Source of the DNA: Candidatus Latescibacterota bacterium | Lineage (GTDB): Bacteria > Latescibacterota > UBA2968 | Direction: 5' to 3' | Length of the DNA: 64,000 bases | NCBI GenBank assembly: GCA_022821275.1 | Contig: JAJEDY010000059.1 | Coordinates: 1 to 64,000, forward strand | Shown here: piece by piece, positions 8,765 to 40,388 of the stretch | How positions within the stretch are numbered: the stretch's first letter is position 1 | How the letters are laid out: the number at the start of each line of letters is the position of its first letter | Program-made: the position numbers and the translations under genes | The notes under the pieces: model-generated | Databases searched by the model: none | Told to the model about the DNA's origin: nothing | Seen by the model: the letters and a program-made list of their open reading frames with translations, nothing else

Positions 8765-9523
8765 ATGAAGTATCGACATCTCCCTCTGGTCCTCGCACTC
8801 CTCATTGCATGCAGCTATGGCGTGAGTGACGCAGGGCACCACCTGAAGAGCGAGCAAAAAAGCGAGAGCGCCGCTAAAAAAATGGAGCCAAAACCAGTCA
8901 TGATCCCCGACGCCAATCTGCGGGCAGTCATTGCGGATTCCCTGAACATGGCGAGCGATGCGGTGATTACCACGGCTGACATGGCGAAATTGAGACGCCT
9001 TGTCGCGCAAAATGCAAACATCAGCGATTTGAGCGGACTCGAACATGCAAAAAATTTGACAGTACTGAACCTCGGTACTACGCGCGTAGAAAAAAAGGTC
9101 GTCAACAGCAACGCCGTCTCAGACCTTTCGGCACTTGCCGGTTTGAAAAAACTGAGAACGCTGAATCTGGCTCGCAATAATGTATCCGACGTCTCGGCAC
9201 TTGCTAAATTAAACAACCTGAGAAACCTGAATCTCAGTGCGAACCGCAACGTTTCTGATATTTCGGCACTTTCTGGGGCGACCAAACTGAGAACGCTGAA
9301 TGTCTCTGGCAACAAAGTCGCGGACATTTCAGCCGTGTCAGGCATGGCAGAGTTGAGAAACCTGAACCTCAGCAACAATAAAGTTGCAGACCTCGCACCG
9401 GCCGCTGGACTGGCCAATCTCGCAACACTGAGTATCAGGCGCAACGCTCTGGACGAGGCATCGATGAAGACGCATATTCCCGCCTTGACAAAAAAAGGCG
9501 TTAAGGTAAATACCGACAGTTAA
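8765..9523 (+). CDS. Exported leucine-rich-repeat protein
   Basis: A 252-residue secreted protein: signal peptide (about 1-23, LPLVLALLIACSYG), a lysine- and glutamate-rich linker, then the cap PDANLRAVIADSL and about seven SDS22/internalin-like repeats of 22 residues (for example LSALAGLKKLRTLNLARNNV). Such domains bind other proteins or surface ligands. ATG 8765 is preceded by GGAGGAAAAACC; the upstream in-frame ATG at 8732 would disrupt the signal peptide. A long leader with paired repeats precedes it. A cysteine at about residue 16 could make it a lipoprotein, but the context is not a clean lipobox. Confidence 0.85.
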   Translation: MKYRHLPLVLALLIACSYGVSDAGHHLKSEQKSESAAKKMEPKPVMIPDANLRAVIADSLNMASDAVITTADMAKLRRLVAQNANISDLSGLEHAKNLTVLNLGTTRVEKKVVNSNAVSDLSALAGLKKLRTLNLARNNVSDVSALAKLNNLRNLNLSANRNVSDISALSGATKLRTLNVSGNKVADISAVSGMAELRNLNLSNNKVADLAPAAGLANLATLSIRRNALDEASMKTHIPALTKKGVKVNTDS

Positions 9524-24518: not shown

Positions 24519-24591
24519 GGGGCCGTAGCTCAACTGGGAGAGCGTTTGACTGGCAGTCAAAAGGTCGGCGGTTCGATCCCGCTCGGCTCCA
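24519..24591 (+). tRNA. tRNA-Ala (anticodon GGC)
   Basis: A full cloverleaf can be folded. The acceptor stem GGGGCCG/CGGCTCC includes the G3-U70 pair that marks alanine tRNAs. The D arm is GCTC...GAGC, the anticodon stem TTTGA/TCAAA holds the loop CTGGCAG with anticodon GGC, and the T arm has the loop TTCGATC. The discriminator base is A; CCA is not encoded. Confidence 0.95.
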
Positions 24592-27293: not shown

Positions 27294-29276
27294 TTAGTAC
27301 CCGTGGATATAATGTCCGCCTTCTGGAAACCAGATCAAATCGATCAAAAAAGAACATCCCACAGCGAACACATACCCCACAATCAAACCATAACAACACG
27401 GCTTACCCCTTCGATAGAGCGAAATACCTCCAAAACTGAGAACCAGCAATTTGCTCAGCCACACGAGAAAAATATCCAGCACATAGAGCCGGACATAACC
27501 GCTCGACATCAGCATCACGCCCAGCGGATGAAACGGCCACCAGGAAAACCGGCTCTGCACCACCTGAATAATACCCGCCATCACACCGCCCAGAATCCAC
27601 ACACCAATTTTTCCCGGATCGGTTACAGTGGGGTTGGTTTCCGCAACCGCCTTGGCAATACCTTCGTACATCCCCACTGGCGCACCCACCAGAGACCATG
27701 TCCGGAAAGTGCTCCCCCCCGATTCATAGCAGATGGAAACCGTGTAGAGAATTGCCGCCAGCATCCCCAGCATCAGGCTCCCAATCACCACCCATCCAAC
27801 CCGCTTTGCCGGCCTCACCAGGCGTTCCACATGGGGCAATGCTGCCGGCAAACGCCAACCTGCCAGCAAACGCCAATTCACCAGCCGAAGCCCCACCAGC
27901 GTAGATTCCTGCATCTGGCTGGCTCCCACTGTCATATCCAGAATCGAAGTACCGAAACTCGGAAACAGATACGCAAACCCACTCGCCGCCAAAAACTTCA
28001 TCACCACCAGAATACTCGCCCAGAAAAGCAACAGCCAGGCCAGTCCAATCCCCGCGCTATAACCCGCGCTGTACAGCCAGAAAACCATATAAATACAGCC
28101 GCCCAGAATCCCAAACACGGCTAATCGGGGAGACAAAATCGCGGTTTCCGCCTCTTCGCTTATGGACGGGCGTAACACTTGCTGAAAAACCTTTCGCAGG
28201 TGACCACGAGCAACCCAAATTGCCCAGATCGCCAGCCCCATACTCACGCCATGGGTGAACAGGCCCAAAATCGCAGTGGGTTTAGCCTCTTGCCCGGCCA
28301 AACCCACGGAAAATCCAACCCTGGACATCCCGTAAAGTCCCACCTGCCCGACCAGCCACAAAGACCAGATGCTAAACAGGATATTCAGATCGCACAAAAA
28401 TGTGAACCCCAGCACAGGGGGCAAAATCCGATAAGAGAACGGCGACAAATAACGCGACAATGCAGCGCCTCTGGGGCCTCTTGGACCATAATAAGGATCA
28501 AAAATTGCCAGCCTGGGAAAACCCGGGGACCAGTACTCGATCAGATTCCACAACAAAGGGAGAGCAGCCACGGCAAATCCCACCCAGAACAGCCAGTTCC
28601 GCATAAACGGCGGCCAGCCGCGCTTGCCGTCGAATCCCTCCGTCAAATCGAGAGGAACCTGTGCCAGGGGATACGTCAGCCGTTCGTGCCGAACCCACTG
28701 TTTTTGGAACACCGCCGTCAAACCCAGCCCAATAGCCGTCATCGCCAACCCGGCGGACATCGCCCAAAAAATGGGCGCTATCCACGCCCCCCACGGCACT
28801 GCCGCCCCCTCCTCCAGCCCGAGAAAAAATCCCTCTGTCACCCCTGGAAAATTCGAAGGAAACATCCACCAGGGCAAATAGTCAAAAATCAACTCCTGCC
28901 ACCGGTTCTCGGGCGACGCATAATATCTCGGCGCCGCCATTGCCCCTACCCACTGCGTAATCCAGTTATATCCCGCAAACGATCCGCCCACCCAGAGCAT
29001 GCTCAACGCCAGCCTCAACTCTGCAGAAGTCATAGATAGGCGGGGCGCGAACCGCTTCAAAAAAGCATTCGCCAGAAGCCATGCCACAAAGGGCAACAAC
29101 ACCGCCAGAGGCAGATTCGCCATTGCCATGTGTGCAGAACGGGATTCGAACTCCAAAAACGTTGCGGCAATACAGGCAAAAACCAATGTGGCCGAGAAAA
29201 GTACCACGACAGTCCAGCGCAGGCTATCCTCGGCCAACTCAGATGATGGGAAGCGTTTCCTTTTGATTTCAGCCAT
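27294..29276 (-). CDS. Polytopic membrane protein, DUF6785/DUF6784 (OPT-like)
   Basis: A 660-residue integral membrane protein with about 13 to 15 hydrophobic segments spread over its whole length. Motifs such as GGSFAGYNWITQWVGAMAAP and RHERLTYPLAQVPLDL are typical of the DUF6785 N-terminal and DUF6784 C-terminal families, distantly like oligopeptide transporters; they are frequent in Poribacteria and Latescibacterota and not characterised. It lies 8 bases after an aldo/keto reductase gene, so the two form an operon under the 30217-30263 promoter. Its stop is 4 bases from the stop of the convergent Helicase_C_3 gene. Confidence 0.75.
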   Translation of the reverse strand: MAEIKRKRFPSSELAEDSLRWTVVVLFSATLVFACIAATFLEFESRSAHMAMANLPLAVLLPFVAWLLANAFLKRFAPRLSMTSAELRLALSMLWVGGSFAGYNWITQWVGAMAAPRYYASPENRWQELIFDYLPWWMFPSNFPGVTEGFFLGLEEGAAVPWGAWIAPIFWAMSAGLAMTAIGLGLTAVFQKQWVRHERLTYPLAQVPLDLTEGFDGKRGWPPFMRNWLFWVGFAVAALPLLWNLIEYWSPGFPRLAIFDPYYGPRGPRGAALSRYLSPFSYRILPPVLGFTFLCDLNILFSIWSLWLVGQVGLYGMSRVGFSVGLAGQEAKPTAILGLFTHGVSMGLAIWAIWVARGHLRKVFQQVLRPSISEEAETAILSPRLAVFGILGGCIYMVFWLYSAGYSAGIGLAWLLLFWASILVVMKFLAASGFAYLFPSFGTSILDMTVGASQMQESTLVGLRLVNWRLLAGWRLPAALPHVERLVRPAKRVGWVVIGSLMLGMLAAILYTVSICYESGGSTFRTWSLVGAPVGMYEGIAKAVAETNPTVTDPGKIGVWILGGVMAGIIQVVQSRFSWWPFHPLGVMLMSSGYVRLYVLDIFLVWLSKLLVLSFGGISLYRRGKPCCYGLIVGYVFAVGCSFLIDLIWFPEGGHYIHGY

Positions 29277-30187: not shown

Positions 30188-30216
30188 GATAACCCTCCTT
30201 GTTTGGCCTAACCACC

Positions 30217-30263
30217 TGCCCGTAATATGGCATCACAGAACTTGTCTTGTCAACCTTTGATCT
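30217..30263 (-). promoter_or_regulatory. 47-bp promoter module, copy 1
   Basis: On the minus strand this holds TTGACA (30253-30248), an 18-base spacer and CATATT (30229-30224), with transcription expected to start near 30217, some 30 bases before the aldo/keto reductase ATG. The arms TGCC and GGCA with an 8-base centre bracket the -10 box. It is identical at 41 of 47 positions to 37055-37101, which lies in front of the histidine kinase gene. Confidence 0.65.
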
Positions 30264-31744: not shown

Positions 31745-31873
31745 CCTGGATGCGGATCGGGGTCTCCAACCAGGACTGGACTGAGCTTTTAGGTCAACGA
31801 CCTTGAAGCCTCGTGTCCGGGGTGATGGCGTTTCGAGGTATTAGGGGTTGGAAGAATCAAAAACTGAGGGAAC

Positions 31874-32947
31874 TTAGAGGGAAATCGCCACGGAAATCGC
31901 ACTGGTATGCTTGCGATAAAAACCGCCGGTTCGGCGGGCACCGTTGCGGGAAAACCCGTATTGCAATGAGAGATCCAGCCGGTTCGTTAGCCGCCGGGAC
32001 AACTTCAGTACCAAAAGCGTCTGTTCGTATTCATCCACCTCCGAATCCCAACCGGGCAGTGGCACCAGCGGATCATCATACCTGCGAAGCTGAAGGTTTG
32101 CCAGCATCTGCGCATCGAACTGGAAACCCAGGTGTCGCACCAGAAGCACCTGCATCCGGTGCGCTTTAAAACTATATCCGTAGCTGTTGGATGTATTGTG
32201 GAGAAATCCATAGACGAGATCAACGAGCACCCCACGATAAAGCTGTATGCCCGCCGAAATCTCGCGCAAAAGATCCGATTGTGCAAATCTCAATTCATCT
32301 ATCCTGCCTCCTGCGTCAACCGCCAGAGCAGCGCGATTGTAATCCAACCATCGCCAGGTCCCTGTCAATCGAGCTCGAAATCGCCGGGATTTCCCGTACT
32401 GGACACCCGCACCCACTTCGTTCGAAATCACCTCTGGCAATCGCATATCCCGAGAATCATGTCCTCCAAAGCGATAATACAGGTCGCTTGTAAACCCCTG
32501 TCCAAAAACATATTGGATACGTCCTTCTAAAGCGCCGCGCAAATATCCTTCTTCCCCCGGGACCCGGTTTACAATCTTTACTTTCAACACGCCGCTGCCT
32601 GCCAGCCTCACCCGGCGCCCCACGCGCGAGGACGCGGTTACGTTCAAGTGGTTGGTCAACACTGCGCCGGATTCTCCGAACATTGATCGCTCCGCAGTCC
32701 AGAATCGTTTGGCACCTACCTGGTACCGCAGCCAAACAGAACTCCGGGGACGCTTGCGCAAATCACCCGCATACGCAAAGTAAAACCGGCTGATCCAGCC
32801 GGACTGCGGATCAACCGGCGCCTCAAACAGATTGTTATCATAGACCATGCCCGCCTCAATGCGGGTCTCCGCCGACCACCCGACGCCTAAGGCACACAAC
32901 ATCACCGTGAAACCGAGCACAGCCCCGCATGCTCTCTGGCACTTCAA
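31874..32947 (-). CDS. Predicted outer-membrane beta-barrel protein
   Basis: A 357-residue exported protein. A signal peptide (about 1-26, ending VGWSAE) is followed by alternating hydrophobic and polar strands of about ten residues, many with aromatic ends (FYFAYAGDL, LSLQYGFS), and the last strand ends SAISVAISL, as in barrels. I do not recognise a named family. Its start overlaps the stop of the coiled-coil gene in ATGA, so the two are coupled and lie at the end of the kinase/regulator operon. The last 45 codons and the region after the stop are repeated in decayed form at 40155-40320. Confidence 0.65.
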   Translation of the reverse strand: MKCQRACGAVLGFTVMLCALGVGWSAETRIEAGMVYDNNLFEAPVDPQSGWISRFYFAYAGDLRKRPRSSVWLRYQVGAKRFWTAERSMFGESGAVLTNHLNVTASSRVGRRVRLAGSGVLKVKIVNRVPGEEGYLRGALEGRIQYVFGQGFTSDLYYRFGGHDSRDMRLPEVISNEVGAGVQYGKSRRFRARLTGTWRWLDYNRAALAVDAGGRIDELRFAQSDLLREISAGIQLYRGVLVDLVYGFLHNTSNSYGYSFKAHRMQVLLVRHLGFQFDAQMLANLQLRRYDDPLVPLPGWDSEVDEYEQTLLVLKLSRRLTNRLDLSLQYGFSRNGARRTGGFYRKHTSAISVAISL

Positions 32948-34029
32948 CGTCCCTCCTCCAGCATCCGCTGCAGATGTTTCCGAAATGCCTCTGCACGCTG
33001 CTTCAGCGCCTGTTCGCGGGTCGTCAGAGCCTTCTGTAGTCCCTTTAATCGAGCAATCTCCGAAACCAGATCATCTGAGGAAAGCACCTCTGGCGGAGTC
33101 TGTGCGTGCGGCACGCCAATCTCTCGCCCGACCACAAAGACTCGCTCTGTCGTAGAACCGGGCTCCAATAGACCAGTCACTGTCTCTGTTGCGTCGTCGG
33201 CCCCCGATCGTTCGTCCGTCACCCCTGCTGCCGCTATCGCATCGGGCAACGCATTTTCTGGTGCCGGGCCCGCCTCATTGAGCAACACACCACCCGTTCC
33301 CTCGACTGCCTGCCCAGGTGACAGAGAACGCCCTTCGAGTACAGCCTCATCAAAAAAATCCAACTCTCCTCTCAATGTGGCCATCCGTATCCGCAATCTG
33401 CGCTCTTCCTCCAACCGTTTTATCCGCCGCACCACCACATCTGCTTTCACCCGTGTTTGAGCTGCCATATCCTCCATCAGGTCGGCTTTCTGGCGAATCT
33501 CATCTGGTCCGTCATCCTCCCGCACCACCAGCATCTGCGCCTCTGCCAGACGAATTTCCATCCCCCCTTCCTCCAGTGCGCCTCGCGCCCGCTGCAAGGC
33601 TCTCAACCGGCCAGCCTTAGCGGCATCTGGCTCTTTCTCCAGCGCTGCAATGGCTGCGCCGATCTCTCGATCATAGTGCGTTCGCAGTTTTTGCCGCAGG
33701 TGGGACAATGCAGTCCGCACCACTTCAAAGGCCATGTCAACCCGCTCAATACGATCCGCGAGTTCCAGTGTTTGCCTCAGCGCCTGCTGGAGTGTCTCCG
33801 CAACGCCCCCAGTATCGGCGCGCTTCAAACGGTAGATCTGGTTTGCCAGCGTGTCCAGTCTGACCGCCAGGATCGCCCGTTGTGTGCGCAAAGAATCTCT
33901 AACTTCCTCCAACCGCGTGTGCTCGGTCTGCAGGCTGTCGAGCGATTCGGCCGACGCTGAAAACGATAAGCTCCAAACTAAACTGTGGAAAAATAAACAT
34001 CTATAGACATATCTCATCACAATTCTCAT
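32944..34029 (-). CDS. Exported coiled-coil protein
   Basis: A 361-residue protein with a signal peptide (about 1-28, ending SFSASAES). Two coiled-coil parts (about 30-235 and about 315-361) are rich in Glu, Arg, Leu and Ala, and a flexible Gly/Ala/Pro-rich stretch (about 240-310) lies between. It looks like a periplasmic scaffold or a partner of the barrel protein whose gene overlaps its stop. No enzyme motif is seen and no named family is recognised. It starts 38 bases after the response regulator stop. The start could also be the ATG four codons later. Confidence 0.65.
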   Translation of the reverse strand: MRIVMRYVYRCLFFHSLVWSLSFSASAESLDSLQTEHTRLEEVRDSLRTQRAILAVRLDTLANQIYRLKRADTGGVAETLQQALRQTLELADRIERVDMAFEVVRTALSHLRQKLRTHYDREIGAAIAALEKEPDAAKAGRLRALQRARGALEEGGMEIRLAEAQMLVVREDDGPDEIRQKADLMEDMAAQTRVKADVVVRRIKRLEEERRLRIRMATLRGELDFFDEAVLEGRSLSPGQAVEGTGGVLLNEAGPAPENALPDAIAAAGVTDERSGADDATETVTGLLEPGSTTERVFVVGREIGVPHAQTPPEVLSSDDLVSEIARLKGLQKALTTREQALKQRAEAFRKHLQRMLEEGR

Positions 34030-34067
34030 AACGATTACCCCCTACCCTGATCTATGAAACCCGCCCT

Positions 34068-35453
34068 TTATGTCAGCCCGTATTTGTCCAATTTATAATA
34101 AAACGCGCTGGTTTTGATACCCAGCATCTCCGCCGCCTTCGTTTTAACCCCTCCGGCCTGTTCCAGCGCCTGTTCAATCAGTTGCCGCTCCAAATCTTCC
34201 AGCCTGCGGGTCAAAGGAATCGCGCTATCCTCAAGTTCCTCAGCGGAAACCTCTGCTCGTGACGCCTCCACATCCAGCGGCAGGTCGTTCACATCCACGA
34301 CATTGCCATCGGCCAGCACAAGGGTGCGCTCAATCACATTCTCCAGTTCTCGCACATTGCCGGGCCAGGTATAGGACGCCATCGCAGCCATCGCCCGGTC
34401 TGTCAATCGTTTCAAGGGCCGGTTCATCTCTTCACATTTCTTATGCAAAAAGTGGTCCACCAGATCCGGAATGTCCGCCTTGCGATCCCTCAACGGGACC
34501 AGGCGGATCGGAATCACCTCCAGCCGATAAAAAAGGTCCTCTCTGAATGCGCCCTCGGCCACCATTTCTCTCAACACTCGATGTGTGGCCGCAATCACAC
34601 GTACATCAGCATGAAGCGTCTCTTCTCCCCCCACCCGATCGTACTCCTTCGTCTGTAACACCCTCAGAATATTCACCTGAGCCTCAAGGGGCAAATCCCC
34701 GATCTCATCCAGAAAAATCGTACCGCCTTCGGCCAGCTCAAACTTGCCCTTTTTTTGACGAATTGCTCCGGTAAATGCGCCCTTTTCATGGCCGAACAAT
34801 TCGCTTTGAACCAGTTCTCTCGGCAGTGACCCACAATTCACCTTTACAAACGGCCCTTCCCGCCGGGCGCTCCGGCGATGAATCGCTCGGGCAACCAGTT
34901 CCTTACCGGTTCCACTCTCGCCGTAAACCAGCACTGCAGAATCCGTTTCCGCCACCTTTTCAACCATCTCATACACCGTTTTCATAGGCTTGGATCGGCC
35001 CACCATCTCCCCAAAATTAAACCGTACACCGATCTCGTCCCGTAAATACTGGTTCTCTTCGTCCAGGCGATCCCTCGACTGACGCAATTCCCGATGCTTC
35101 AGAACCTTCTCCACCCTCAGCCGCAACACATCGTACAATGCATCGGCTTTAACGACAAAATCTGCAGCCCCTTTTCTCATGGCCTCGACCGCCACATCGA
35201 TTGTGCCATAGGCCGTAATGACCACCACATCCGTATCGGCATAATCCCGCCGCACAGCGTCGAGCACCTCCAGCCCGTCCATGTCCTCCATCTTGTAATC
35301 CGTAATCACCAGATCAAAAGGCCTCGCTTTCATCTGCCTCAACCCCTCCACCCCGCCCGAAGCTACCGTCACGTCGTGTCCCATCCGTTCGAGCAAAAGT
35401 GCCATCCCAGTGCGCATCGTCTCGTTATCATCGATCACCAGAACCCGGCTCAC
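34068..35453 (-). CDS. Sigma-54-dependent response regulator (NtrC family)
   Basis: A 461-residue regulator in three parts. The receiver domain (1-120) has the phosphorylation site Asp52 (LVITDYKMEDMDG) and the conserved acidic pair at 8-9. The AAA+ sigma-54 activation domain (about 145-375) has Walker A GESGTGKE, the sigma-54 contact loop GAFTGA near residue 225 and Walker B GTIFLDEIGDL. The C-terminal Fis-type helix-turn-helix (about 420-461) ends KTKAAEMLGIKTSAFYYKL. It overlaps the histidine kinase stop by four bases. It should switch on sigma-54 promoters when phosphorylated; I found no clear GG-N10-GC promoter in the adjoining spacers. Confidence 0.94.
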   Translation of the reverse strand: MSRVLVIDDNETMRTGMALLLERMGHDVTVASGGVEGLRQMKARPFDLVITDYKMEDMDGLEVLDAVRRDYADTDVVVITAYGTIDVAVEAMRKGAADFVVKADALYDVLRLRVEKVLKHRELRQSRDRLDEENQYLRDEIGVRFNFGEMVGRSKPMKTVYEMVEKVAETDSAVLVYGESGTGKELVARAIHRRSARREGPFVKVNCGSLPRELVQSELFGHEKGAFTGAIRQKKGKFELAEGGTIFLDEIGDLPLEAQVNILRVLQTKEYDRVGGEETLHADVRVIAATHRVLREMVAEGAFREDLFYRLEVIPIRLVPLRDRKADIPDLVDHFLHKKCEEMNRPLKRLTDRAMAAMASYTWPGNVRELENVIERTLVLADGNVVDVNDLPLDVEASRAEVSAEELEDSAIPLTRRLEDLERQLIEQALEQAGGVKTKAAEMLGIKTSAFYYKLDKYGLT

Positions 35454-37003
35454 TCTCGTTTCCTTTCTCGCAAATATCCCTCATCCCGCTTCTGACCACC
35501 TGGCAAAATCACCTCAAATACAGTGCCTCTGCCTACCTGGCTTTTAACGCCAACAGTTCCTCCATTCTCCTTCACTGTTTTCTGCACAATGGCCATACCC
35601 AAACCGCTCCCCCTCTCTCCCGTTGTAAAAAAAGGTTCGAACAGGCGCTCGATTACGGTGCTATCCATGCCCACACCCGTATCGGCCACCCTGATGACCG
35701 TGTTTCCATTCTCTTTTTTACCTGCCAACCGCAACACGCCTCCTTCTGGCATCGCTTGAACGCCATTCTTTACCAGATTGACCAGCGCGCGTTTGAACTG
35801 GTCGACATCTACAAATACTTTCAGTCCCTGTGGAATCTCTCTTATGCACTGCACCCTTGCCTCGTCCATCTCTGGACTGAGCAAAAAAACGACCTCTTCC
35901 ACAAGCCGAGCAACATCTGCTTCCACTGGTTGCACAACTGAAGGTCGGGCAAAGTCCAGAAATTCGGAAATCACCCGATTGAGTGTGCGCACCTCTCCGG
36001 TCACCTTCTGAATGTGGGCCTTGCGCGCGTCGTCATCCGGTAGATCGCTTGCAATCAAACCCGCATAAATCTCAATGCCGCCCAGAGGATTGCGAATTTC
36101 GTGCGCCACGCCCGCCAGCATCTGCCGCAAGTGCTCATCGCGGTCCAGAATCTTCAAGCGCATTTCCTCCATGGTCTGGCCCAAATAACCCAGTTCATCC
36201 CCGGCAGACCGGTCCACTGGTCGCTCGAGGTCGCCCTCGCCGATGGCCTGTGCAGAGTTGACGAGGCGATGAATCGGCCCAGTCAGAGTGCGGGCGAGAA
36301 CCAAACCGATCGCTATGGTCAACACCACGCTCACCCCTCCAAAAATCAGCACAGAACGCTGAAATGCTCGAATCGCCTCGACAAATCCGGCCCCAATATC
36401 CACGCCAACCGCTGCCACAACTTCCTCTCCGGCATAAACAGGCGCGTAACCGGATTGATAATAAACACCCGATTTGTCCTGAAACAAAATCGAATGCGAC
36501 GCCTGCCCTCGCCAGACGTCGACCAATTCCGCTCGGTCCACCCGCAACCGCGTATATTCCCTCCCAATCGGCACGTCGGGCGCCGTGTCCAGCAGGCTCT
36601 GTCCCTGATGGTCGAACACGTAAATTCGCCGGGCGCCGACCAGATCTCGATATCTGACCAGCTTCGCTCTCAACCGCGCGTGAAGATTGCCACCCTCAAA
36701 CCCCGAACGCAAGTGGCGCACCGCATCTCCATCAATACCCGCCGCCGAAAGTTGCGCGATAGCAAGCAGTTGGTCGCTCATCTGGCGCTCGAGGCTATTG
36801 CGTGTGAGGCGATACAATATCCAACCCGTGCTACCGACCACAAGGAATACGAAAACAACAAATGTCACAACCAGCCTGCGGCCAATGCGGCCCCTGTGTT
36901 GAGACGGTAACCTTTGCCTGCTCGCGAAACCATCAAAAATACTCCGGATTCTGCATCCCAGATGCACTTTCCTCTCCGGATACTGAGAAAATCTCCAGCA
37001 CAT
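35450..37003 (-). CDS. Membrane sensor histidine kinase
   Basis: A 517-residue kinase, partner of the NtrC-type regulator. TM1 is about 43-66, followed by an extracytoplasmic sensor of roughly 145 residues (single Cache/PAS-like look, with IYVFDHQGQSLLDT), TM2 about 215-237, a HAMP domain (about 240-290), the HisKA box GVAHEIRNPLGGIEI with the phosphorylated His near 300, and the ATPase domain with the N box NLVKNGVQAM, DTGVGM and GSGLGMAI. The ATG at 37003 has a poor ribosome binding site; a GTG at 36967 with GGAG upstream is a possible alternative. The operon is read from the 47-bp module at 37055-37101. Confidence 0.93.
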   Translation of the reverse strand: MCWRFSQYPERKVHLGCRIRSIFDGFASRQRLPSQHRGRIGRRLVVTFVVFVFLVVGSTGWILYRLTRNSLERQMSDQLLAIAQLSAAGIDGDAVRHLRSGFEGGNLHARLRAKLVRYRDLVGARRIYVFDHQGQSLLDTAPDVPIGREYTRLRVDRAELVDVWRGQASHSILFQDKSGVYYQSGYAPVYAGEEVVAAVGVDIGAGFVEAIRAFQRSVLIFGGVSVVLTIAIGLVLARTLTGPIHRLVNSAQAIGEGDLERPVDRSAGDELGYLGQTMEEMRLKILDRDEHLRQMLAGVAHEIRNPLGGIEIYAGLIASDLPDDDARKAHIQKVTGEVRTLNRVISEFLDFARPSVVQPVEADVARLVEEVVFLLSPEMDEARVQCIREIPQGLKVFVDVDQFKRALVNLVKNGVQAMPEGGVLRLAGKKENGNTVIRVADTGVGMDSTVIERLFEPFFTTGERGSGLGMAIVQKTVKENGGTVGVKSQVGRGTVFEVILPGGQKRDEGYLRERKRE

Positions 37004-37054
37004 GCCGTAGCATCTCCTGCCTGACTGTTAAAGGTCCTGGAATCGATAACAACA

Positions 37055-37101
37055 TGCCTGTAATATGGCATCACAGGGCCTGTTTTGTCAACGTTTGATC
37101 T
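37055..37101 (-). promoter_or_regulatory. 47-bp promoter module, copy 2
   Basis: On the minus strand: TTGACA (37091-37086), 18 bases, CATATT (37067-37062), with the same TGCC-N8-GGCA bracket around the -10 box as copy 1 at 30217-30263. It lies about 50 bases upstream of the histidine kinase start, so it probably drives the kinase-regulator-coiled-coil-barrel operon. Confidence 0.65.
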
Positions 37102-37197
37102 GCCGGATGGGTTCCGAAACCCATGCTAATTATCCGATCGTTCACCTGCCCCGTTTGCATTGTAAGCGCCCTTCTCGACGCTACGCTACAACCTGAC

Positions 37198-38673
37198 CTA
37201 CCGGATCGGCATCGACACTGAGATTTGGTGGGTCATTACCCAGGCATCTCGTAACGTCAATGGACCTTCGGGCGCGGGGAGGAAATCGGCGGCCGCAGCA
37301 AGCTCTGCCGTGCCGGCCCTTGCCACTCCCGGTCGGCCCGTTCCCGTGATCAGCCGCCCCCTGTAGCGGAGATCGAACTCGGCCAGGCCGAAGTGGAGTC
37401 CCCAACTCGGGGTCCATTCCATCCAGCTTTCCCTCTGGTTCCGTGTCGAGCCTTTGATGTGGCTGGTTTGGGTCAGGTCGTACCGTATGGAGCGCATCTG
37501 CAGACCGAGTTGGAACCCGCCCCAGCCGAAGTCGTGCCCAATGCCCATCCTGATTTTCGCGTTCAAGAAGGAGAACTCGTTCTCTACCGTCTTCTCGCCC
37601 GCTCGGACCAGATTGCCAGTGGATCCGACCGTGTCGCTCGCAGCATCGGCCCATGTGTAGCTCGAGATAGGCTCCAGGACGAGGTCGATCCCATAGGTCG
37701 CCCTCTCCCCGGTCTTGGCAATACCCACGCCAAAGTCATACGCCCATGAATCGCCCGGGTCCCGGGGGATGTTCTGGATCTCGTAGTTCGGGATCTTGGG
37801 ATGCGACTTCCGGTTTACGGTCGTCGCGGCTCCGACGCGCCATCCACTCCTGGTCAGGGGCTGGGTGAAGCCCAAATGGAGACCCGACGTGTTCGTCTGA
37901 TCGAGATTTCGTTCCATGCGCGGCACTCCCTCTCCGATTTCCCAATCCTGTTGCCAGATCCAATCCAGATAGTGAACCTCGTGCGTCATGTCGAAGCGGT
38001 TGTGGAGAAGGAGTACCTCGAAAGACCGTCCGCTCTCCCATTCGCCGAGAAGGCCGAGGCGCAGATCCACACTATGGCCATCTTGTTCGATCCGTTCGCT
38101 GAAGGCGTAGAGGTGCTCGACGCCATCGAGGGCACCCAGTCCGGCCCAGGAGAGGCTTCCGCCGAGAGAGAACCCGCTCTCTCCGAGCATCCGCCCGAAG
38201 AATCCGTGTAAATAGAGGTTTCTGGCCGAGCGGTCGCGCAGCGGCTGCCCGGTGTTCGGACCCCACCAATTCCAGCGGTCCGCGGCAATGAGTTGTTGAA
38301 GCGCGAAGGAGCCGCCCCCGAACCAGCTATCCGATCCCGCGAGGAAGGTGATCGGAATTGTGCGCCCTGCGCCATTGTGGTCAGAGATCAAATAGAAGGT
38401 CGGAGATCCCACAATCAGCGTCTCCTCGATTCGCGCGCCCTTCGCCGGGTTGGAGAAGGGATCGAGGAGAAGGTCGTTTATCGCGAGCGATACGCCCCCG
38501 AGTGCCAGATTCGCCGAGGGGTAGATCAGGAACTGGTCTCCCGTCGCGACGGGGACCGATTTAATTCCGATGAGCTGGGAGGTTACACGGGACGGGTAGA
38601 GGGTTGCCAGGACCGCGATTGAAAGCGCGAGAAGGGTTGTAGTCATCGGCCGTTGAAAGGAAAGTGCGTTCAT
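37198..38673 (-). CDS. Predicted outer-membrane protein, atypical base composition
   Basis: A 491-residue exported protein: signal peptide (about 8-32, LLALSIAVLATLYPSRVTSQ), then PSANLALGGVSLAINDLLLDPFSNPA, which resembles the opening of PorV/FadL-like barrels that carry a conserved Asn-Pro after a short helix. The rest is strand-rich and ends MTHQISVSMPIR. The start ATG 38673 follows GGAGATTCTCCA. Its codons are much richer in G and C at third positions than those of its neighbours, which suggests a separate origin. Function is unknown. The region to its left and right is sparse and decayed. Confidence 0.65.
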   Translation of the reverse strand: MNALSFQRPMTTTLLALSIAVLATLYPSRVTSQLIGIKSVPVATGDQFLIYPSANLALGGVSLAINDLLLDPFSNPAKGARIEETLIVGSPTFYLISDHNGAGRTIPITFLAGSDSWFGGGSFALQQLIAADRWNWWGPNTGQPLRDRSARNLYLHGFFGRMLGESGFSLGGSLSWAGLGALDGVEHLYAFSERIEQDGHSVDLRLGLLGEWESGRSFEVLLLHNRFDMTHEVHYLDWIWQQDWEIGEGVPRMERNLDQTNTSGLHLGFTQPLTRSGWRVGAATTVNRKSHPKIPNYEIQNIPRDPGDSWAYDFGVGIAKTGERATYGIDLVLEPISSYTWADAASDTVGSTGNLVRAGEKTVENEFSFLNAKIRMGIGHDFGWGGFQLGLQMRSIRYDLTQTSHIKGSTRNQRESWMEWTPSWGLHFGLAEFDLRYRGRLITGTGRPGVARAGTAELAAAADFLPAPEGPLTLRDAWVMTHQISVSMPIR

Positions 38674-38805
38674 TGGAGAATCTCCTTGTGTAAAGTGAAG
38701 TGCTGATTTTGCCCTGTTATTCACAGGATTTCAGATAATAACCATTCTGCCGATGCACAGACCGGTCTCTTCTCTGTGCCTTCGGCGTGCATCTGTCGCA
38801 AAGCT

Positions 38806-39456
38806 CTATTGCCTCCCGTACAGAGCCGAAAAAATCATAAAATCTTGAAAATCAACGTATTTATTCCCATCCAGATCGTATGCAGCGTTATAACCCGCTT
38901 CGCCTTCCGCCTTTCTATACCCCTGGGCAAAGAGCAAAAAATCACTGAAATCCACACGCCCATCGCCACTAAAATCAATCCTGTGTTTATCCAGACTATT
39001 TATCCGTTCCCAAATCCGATAGACAACCCCGCGGTTTTTGACGATCACGTCCGTACCCAGCGCCAGGTACGGTCCCAGATCCGGAAACCGATCCAGCAAC
39101 TTAAAATACCGGTCACTGCCAAACCGATACTCAATAACCGGTTCCCCCTCGGTATAACCCGCATCTTTCCATACGCCATCTCTCAAATAAAACGTCTTTG
39201 TGCCCACCGTACGCACGCCGCCTTCTCGGAAAACCACGTTGGGTGAGGGTGCTGCTACAGCCCCGGCCAGGTCACGTGTGGCTTCGGACGCCGCCACTGC
39301 ATCCGCCCCTTGCTGATCTGCGAATCCGGTTGGAAGCGCAAACGGCCCCGGAGGCGTATCCTCCACAATTAAAAAAGACGTATAGGGCGTAATAATGCCA
39401 TACGTGCGACTCAGGCTCACAATTTCGTCAACCAGTTCCTTCACTTCTCCATTCAA
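38806..39456 (-). pseudogene. C-terminal remnant of a VIT/VWA protein, with dockerin-like domain
   Basis: This frame encodes about 216 residues. It opens with NGEVKELVDEIVSLSRTYGI and ITPYTSFLIVED, the well-known segment that follows the von Willebrand A domain in VIT/VWA proteins, continues with a middle region and ends in two EF-hand-like loops of dockerin type (DFSGDGRVDFSDF and DLDGNKYVDFQDF). It has no signal peptide and only a TTG in the position of a start. It is the 3' part of the gene whose 5' part is 39428-39988, in a different frame. Confidence 0.75.
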
Positions 39457-39988
39457 CCTGCACCGATACCATCTTCAGTGGACGTGCTGAGAATTTCTCT
39501 GTATTTAGTGGGTACACATATTTTCGCACCTCGTTTCGCTCCCGAATAACCTCGCTGTAGGACAACTGTACCCGCTTTTCCACTCCTGCTACAATGGGGA
39601 AAATCCGGGCGCGATAAGCCCCTCGACCCGCATACTCCAGCAGGGCCGGATCGATCCGCTGTCGCACAATTTCCGTATAAATCCGTCTCGCCTCATCCGC
39701 TGGGAGGAGTTCTGCCGAGAGTGCCTTTCCATCTACAAACATCGAAAAAGCCGAAATCGCGGCTCTTTCAGGAATCGGGAACATATAGGTGCCCTCCACT
39801 TCCCCAGCTCTTCCCAGATTTAGAAAAGACTGATCAATCTCCGTCACTACCGCCTGATCCTGGATACGCACTTTCACCAGATGCCGCGCAATCGCAAGCT
39901 CCACCCACGGTTCGGGGATAATTATTCCGTCTGCCAGAGCAGCCCCTGGCATTAAAAAGAACAGCAACGCCATCATAAATCGTAGCAT
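39428..39988 (-). pseudogene. N-terminal VIT-domain remnant of the same gene
   Basis: A 186-residue frame with a strong ribosome binding site (GGAGG, 7 bases before the ATG), a signal peptide (MLRFMMALLFFLMPGAALADG) and a VIT domain (about 25-170: QSFLNLGRAGEVEGTYMFP, then SFSMFVDG-like and GRGAYRARIFPI). It then runs into DNA that codes for the C-terminal part in another frame and stops. The von Willebrand A domain expected between the two, some 300 to 400 residues, is missing, so an internal deletion is the simplest explanation. A short VIT-only protein could still be made and exported. Confidence 0.75.
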
Positions 39989-40388
39989 CTTGACACCTCC
40001 AATATCGGGTTGGGAGCAAACTGTTTCACCCACTTATCAGCAAAACATGTGCCAAAGAACTACTTACCTCCCGTTTACTGCCTGGAAATGGATTTTCAGG
40101 AGCCAATCATGTAAAAAAACGGTTTTTTCCTGAGTCTCGTTCGATATAGATGGATTGGGAGAATCAGAAATTTGAATATGTACTCAAAAAACTGAGGGGA
40201 ACTTGGAGGGAAATCGTCACGGAAATCGCGCAAGTGTGCTTGGGATAAACGGCAGGTGCCGTTGCGAGAGAATTCTCATTGCAGTGAAAACGCGAGAGCG
40301 TAGTCGCCCTGAACTTGCTATTTATCCATAAGACGGTATATTGTCTGTATGCATCTTCCTGAATATCCAACTCATATCGGAACTGATT
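39989..40388. other. Long spacer with gene debris
   Basis: Between the VIT remnant and the epimerase-like gene there are 400 bases without an intact gene. The only recognisable content is the barrel-gene fragment at 40155-40320. Bases 39989-40154 show the VIT ribosome binding site and otherwise nothing I can assign. Confidence 0.6.
40155..40320 (-). pseudogene. Decayed 3' end of an outer-membrane barrel paralogue
   Basis: On the minus strand a peptide NSLATAPAVYPKHTCAISVT followed by ISL matches the end of the barrel protein at 31874-32947 (NGARRTGGFYRKHTSAISVA, then ISL). The nucleotide similarity also runs past the stop codon (31849-31874 versus 40155-40203), with a 20-base insertion. The stop TAA of the intact gene is CAA here. 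No upstream part of the gene remains. Confidence 0.65.

Follow-up and report, generated by a model that had tools for sequence, protein, structure and literature searches.

Why would two operons whose first genes are unrelated be preceded by almost the same short stretch of DNA? Within the window analyzed here (a single stretch of 64,000 nucleotides from a Candidatus Latescibacterota genome), one copy lies before an operon opening with an aldo/keto reductase (AKR) gene and the other before an operon opening with a histidine kinase (HK) gene (Table 1). The initial annotation had read the two copies as one promoter module and offered two explanations, a single repressor or a recently copied promoter. 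The reading we favor, with a probability of roughly 0.7, comes from sequence comparison: an AKR-type site within the genus would have supplied a copy of its core promoter, which would now stand before the HK operon of an accessory island.

Table 1 Features of the two operons and the accessory island, by position in the window
Feature	Positions	Strand	Remarks
AKR-side promoter module	30217..30263	-	TTGACA 30253-30248, 18-nt spacer, CATATT 30229-30224
Aldo/keto reductase (AKR), PF00248	29285..30187	-	First gene after AKR-side promoter
DUF6785/DUF6784 membrane protein	27294..29276	-	Second gene after AKR-side promoter
HK-side promoter module	37055..37101	-	TTGACA 37091-37086, 18-nt spacer, CATATT 37067-37062
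Histidine kinase (HK: HAMP, HisKA, HATPase_c)	35450..37003	-	N-terminal start uncertain in window
NtrC-type response regulator (receiver, sigma-54 AAA+, Fis-type HTH)	34068..35453	-	
Third gene after HK promoter	32944..34029	-	No Pfam/NCBIfam match; coiled-coil-like by eye
Fourth gene after HK promoter	31874..32947	-	No Pfam/NCBIfam match; outer-membrane-barrel-like by eye
Sigma-54 promoter TGGCAC-N5-TTGC	40039..40054	-	Before island VIT-domain gene
Accessory island with HK operon	31747..40290	.	8.5 kb
Left end repeat of island	31868..31920	+	Direct repeat, 53 nt, 87% to right copy
Right end repeat of island	40197..40249	+	53-nt direct repeat partner

Two near-identical sites with promoter character

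Compared directly within the 64-kb window, the two modules are identical at 41 of 47 bases on the minus strand, a recount that reproduced the initial figure together with its coordinates and strand. Repeat finding extended the match to 55 nt at 85% identity (30209–30263 and 37047–37101); direct repeats of ≥36 nt form just six families in the window, this pair being one of them. At 9116–9369, a 53-nt stretch is present four times with a spacing of 66–69 nt and looks leucine-rich-repeat-like by eye. An Rfam RNA element was rejected as the identity of the module, the window's only Rfam match being a tRNA at 24519–24591.

The TTGACA, 18-base spacer and CATATT first described on the minus strand were found in both copies, each scoring 10/12 and carrying a TG ahead of the −10. 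Hexamers at a spacing of 16–18 nt before a gene, the sigma-70-type arrangement, are thus present at the AKR and HK sites alike; CATATT agrees with TATAAT at 4/6 positions, and a spacer length other than 18 nt is commonest in this genome. Genome-wide, TTGACA-N14..22-YATAWT matched 96 times versus 20 times for the reversed pattern, with TTGACA-N17-TATATT as the commonest form (31/96). The CATATT form accounted for 14 matches, seven of them with an 18-nt spacer, including both module sites. We inspected these two and the five other N18 sites out of the 14. Among the five others, L108 and L111 are intragenic, L109 precedes a gene judged rfbA-like by eye, L112 has its gene 355 nt downstream, and L110 allows no clear assignment. 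Since at least two of the five other sites are intragenic, the pattern by itself is promoter-like and not proof of a promoter. The reading as a promoter is nevertheless supported by the genome-wide excess of the pattern together with the preservation of −35, spacer and −10 ahead of the AKR gene in other species. Hexamers and spacing were kept in 12/12 copies from the genus, and we infer that both modules are good sigma-70-type promoters.

The distance to the first gene, originally put at 30–50 bases, is 29 nt from the module to the AKR start codon (30187), and 51 nt to position 37003 on the HK side, where the start is unsure. Position 37003 is the first ATG of the HK open frame in the window only and is not conserved. 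In G002, G003 and G006, an in-frame HK start codon (MVSR..) follows the −10 at a distance of 128, 52 and 51 nt, respectively. As the HK start of these relatives is further downstream and the window has a frame shift there, no firm start can be assigned to the HK gene of the window.

The promoter before the AKR gene is likely the older one

The nearest named relatives of the AKR protein are encoded by Latescibacterota MAGs (97, 96 and 92% identity), some near relatives being recorded as Gemmatimonadota, and a genome search identified ten relatives in the same genus. The resulting set of 11 genomes, including the window's own, was readable at the AKR site in eight; G004 and G009 (partial AKR match near the contig end) and G010 (upstream sequence of N) were left out of the count. 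All eight readable genomes (G000–G003, G005–G008) carry the module at this site. In G008 (L009), the AKR gene has been lost save for its first codons, and the promoter is kept and now stands directly before the DUF6785 gene. G007 (L123, between 4671 and 7268) has an insert of ~2.6 kb relative to the window, some 40–50 bp upstream of the −35 of the AKR promoter.

Beyond the genus, no match to the module with ≤3 mismatches was found among the 64 phylum genomes searched; at order level, TTGACR-N18-CAYATY precedes the orthologous AKR gene in G015, G016, G017, G018 and G020. Among these five sites (G019 and G010 left out), the spacing was kept in 5/5, TTGACA in 4/5 and CATATT in 3/5: G018 reads TTGACG/CACATT at the same spacing, and the other four have TTGACA-N18 (4/4) with CATATT in 3/4. 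There was no such site ahead of the AKR relative in order-level G019, nor before the AKR relatives (51–68% identity) of G011, G012 and G014 from other genera of the family, or of G021, G022 and G024 from the class. The presence of the module in 8/8 genus genomes, and of its skeleton at order level, identifies the AKR copy as an old, resident promoter.

The second copy belongs to an accessory island

The HK operon and its module lie on an island found in 4/8 genus genomes (the window's own, G002, G003 and G006) and missing as one clean block from G001, G005, G007 and G008. The HK-side module is present in all four island-bearing genomes. Between the window and G003/G006, the island is 95.2–96.4% alike versus 90.5–91.4% for its flanks; for G002, it is 98.0% alike versus 94.4% for the left flank, the right flank having no match in the compared stretch. 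An island more alike across species (95–98%) than its flanks (~91–94%) points to spread between species. Its 53-nt end repeat has no further copy elsewhere in the genome, and no recombinase was found among the listed open reading frames. Outside the genus, the closest HK relative (G019) showed no module in the readable part of its upstream sequence, beyond which runs of N follow, and upstream of the HK genes of G019, G023, G024 and G025 the readable part held no match of ≥18/32.

Several local differences were observed on and around the island. The VIT-domain gene of the window is split into two pieces on the minus strand (39428–40033 and 38806–39456), its middle having been lost between 8-bp matching ends; G002, G003 and G006 have ~1.07 kb extra within this gene, at 39453–39460, and in G003 a single 772-aa protein covers both pieces. 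In G002 (L119, 15580–15800), the 3′ end of a sulfatase gene is repeated past the right end of the island.

Shared regulation, convergence or repeat

Could the two sites instead be held alike by a common regulator? The initial annotation had pointed to a TGCC-N8-GGCA inverted element around the −10, and both copies in the window do contain it to the letter. Conservation breaks down among orthologues: although intact in 4/4 HK copies, it is intact in only 4/8 AKR copies (broken in G001, G003, G006 and G008) and absent from 5/5 order-level promoters. Such elements are also common by chance, since 13.6% of random 47-mers from the window contain a perfect 4+4 inverted element with a loop of 8, and 64% one with a loop of 3–12. 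We thus rejected TGCC-N8-GGCA as an operator; the single repressor proposed to act through it is not supported, and no evidence for a dedicated repressor was found.

A broader version would make the two operons one small regulon, in which selection keeps the sites alike because both promoters contain or adjoin an operator for the same repressor or activator. Conservation does reach beyond the hexamers: TTGACAA, the spacer TGTG, CATATTAC and ATCAAA, the last ahead of the −35, are invariant in 12/12 genus copies, all of them from close relatives, and these blocks could include a regulator site. The spacer TGTG recurs in 3/5 order-level AKR promoters, and in G003/G006 the HK module was retained though its flanks changed, with 66 nt (37053–37118) kept at 98.5% and ~75 bp on each side differing. 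Against such a regulon stand the broken inverted element in half of the AKR orthologues, the lack of a third site in the genome at ≤3 mismatches, the non-independence of the 12 genus copies, the absence of the ATCAAA part from order-level promoters, and the failure to identify a linked repressor gene. Overall, we consider a shared regulon rather unlikely.

The rarity of the module bears on the remaining explanations. A degenerate 46-mer matched only the two sites in the window and had 0 matches in 100 shuffles, and ~3 × 10⁻⁹ module-like pairs per window would be expected in independent sequence of the same composition. A genome-wide search (5.66 Mb, 101 contigs) for the core pattern, allowing ≤3 mismatches, returned these two sites only, as did a search for the 3′ half of the module alone. 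Searched alone, the 5′ half returned both sites plus eight others at 3 mismatches, compared to five in all for the reversed pattern. Four of these eight extra sites were inspected and none was a promoter copy, three of the four being one contig-end repeat. Contig ends L068, L071 and L073 of G000 have one near-identical stretch in common, a repeat probably responsible for the break in the assembly.

If the sites were alike merely as strong promoters of this phylum, both would have converged on a lineage consensus. The genome does favor TTGACA and YATAWT hexamers, and the N18/CATATT form also occurs before the rfbA-like gene, but the two modules match in spacer and flank positions as well, which no consensus explains. 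Other sites of the window reach at most 27/47, even when the base of either copy is allowed, and every other site in the genome differs from the core by more than 3 mismatches, so that we regard convergence as very unlikely. Lastly, a dispersed non-coding repeat lying before two genes by chance would suit a direct repeat of 47–55 nt, but the initial annotation expected such a repeat to show many copies, within genes or in any orientation, and we rejected it as extremely improbable, the genome holding two copies at ≤3 mismatches, both upstream of genes on the same strand and each found again at the corresponding promoter position in several species.

Likely origin and consequences of the presumably copied promoter

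The copied core promoter thus remains our preferred reading, and its source can be approached through the similarity between copies. HK copies agree with genus AKR promoters at 36–42/47 positions and with order-level AKR promoters at 21–28/47, while genus and order-level AKR promoters agree with each other at 18–27/47. Being far nearer to the former, the HK copies carry a module of the genus AKR type. Copying probably started from the AKR site, because genomes devoid of the island carry the module and order-level AKR genes its skeleton; this direction of copying rests on distribution, a tree of 47 nt being poorly resolved. Over 12 bases immediately upstream of the 47-mer, G008 matches the HK copy best, at 9/12 versus 6–7 for the others. 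Of the two explanations first offered, the copied promoter therefore fits better than the repressor, and “recently” is too strong, because four species already have both copies.

Under this scenario, the 47-bp module would be a core sigma-70-type promoter resident before the AKR-DUF6785 operon, from which ~47–55 bp would have been copied ectopically, within the genus, to a position before the HK operon of the accessory island, the island having since spread between species. Both operons would then probably be transcribed by the housekeeping RNA polymerase, with similar basal strength.

The HK and its NtrC-type partner would in turn probably act on a sigma-54 promoter of the island. The exact pattern TGGCAC-N5-TTGCW occurs at one site only in the window (40054–40039), and its TGGCAC-N5-TTGC core is kept in 4/4 island carriers. 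Genome-wide, this pattern was found at 40 sites versus 4 for the reversed pattern, and a search for the RpoN DNA-binding domain gave a match in this genome as well (rpoN). This suggests that the pair probably controls the island's own sigma-54 promoter.

In a stronger version, the stretch that the island copied from its neighbor would contain a regulator site (ATCAAA, TGTG) besides the core promoter, and the newly arrived kinase and the resident operon would be turned on at the same time. We hold this to be unlikely; if true, it would represent regulatory domestication of an island by a promoter copied from next door. For promoters in general, the case leaves present understanding as it is. 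From the enrichment of TTGACA-N17-TATATT and TGGCAC-N5-TTGCW in this genome, a preliminary idea can be gained of the housekeeping and sigma-54 promoter patterns of these bacteria.

Relation to known systems

Our literature search listed no paper that apparently describes this two-operon promoter case, and none on Latescibacterota promoters. Related systems have been described. The PrsK/PrsR system, as presented in the retrieved part of PMC1569441, likewise combines an HK and an NtrC-type regulator with sigma-54 sites before probable surface-protein genes; here, the likely target is instead a VIT-domain gene, and the corresponding models scored below cut-off (TIGR02916 for PrsK, 87.3 bits versus 300; TIGR02915 for PrsR, 371.8 versus 502.6), so that we do not assign the pair to PrsK/PrsR. 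Horizontal regulatory switching of intergenic regions (Oren et al. 2014, cited in PMC5890482) similarly involves non-coding regulatory DNA, exchanged between related strains according to the excerpt of PMC5890482, but concerns alternative alleles at one locus, whereas here two loci of one genome share a promoter.

The closest parallel is offered by promoter copying and “mobile promoters”, a described phenomenon for which PMC8049555, PMC5906472 and PMC9208149 refer to Matus-Garcia et al. 2012 and van Passel et al. 2014; existing promoters are often copied ahead of other genes, according to the passage in PMC5906472. As far as these passages describe them, mobile promoters resemble our case in that a near-identical short promoter precedes unrelated genes, here AKR and HK. 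They differ in that several dispersed copies are replaced here by two close ones, one of them on an accessory island, with nothing to indicate that the short stretch is itself mobile. Taken together, with no sign of a special repressor, this locus most likely records promoter copying, a modest and known kind of event, and would add to it a small natural example of an accessory island gaining a working promoter in an uncultured phylum.
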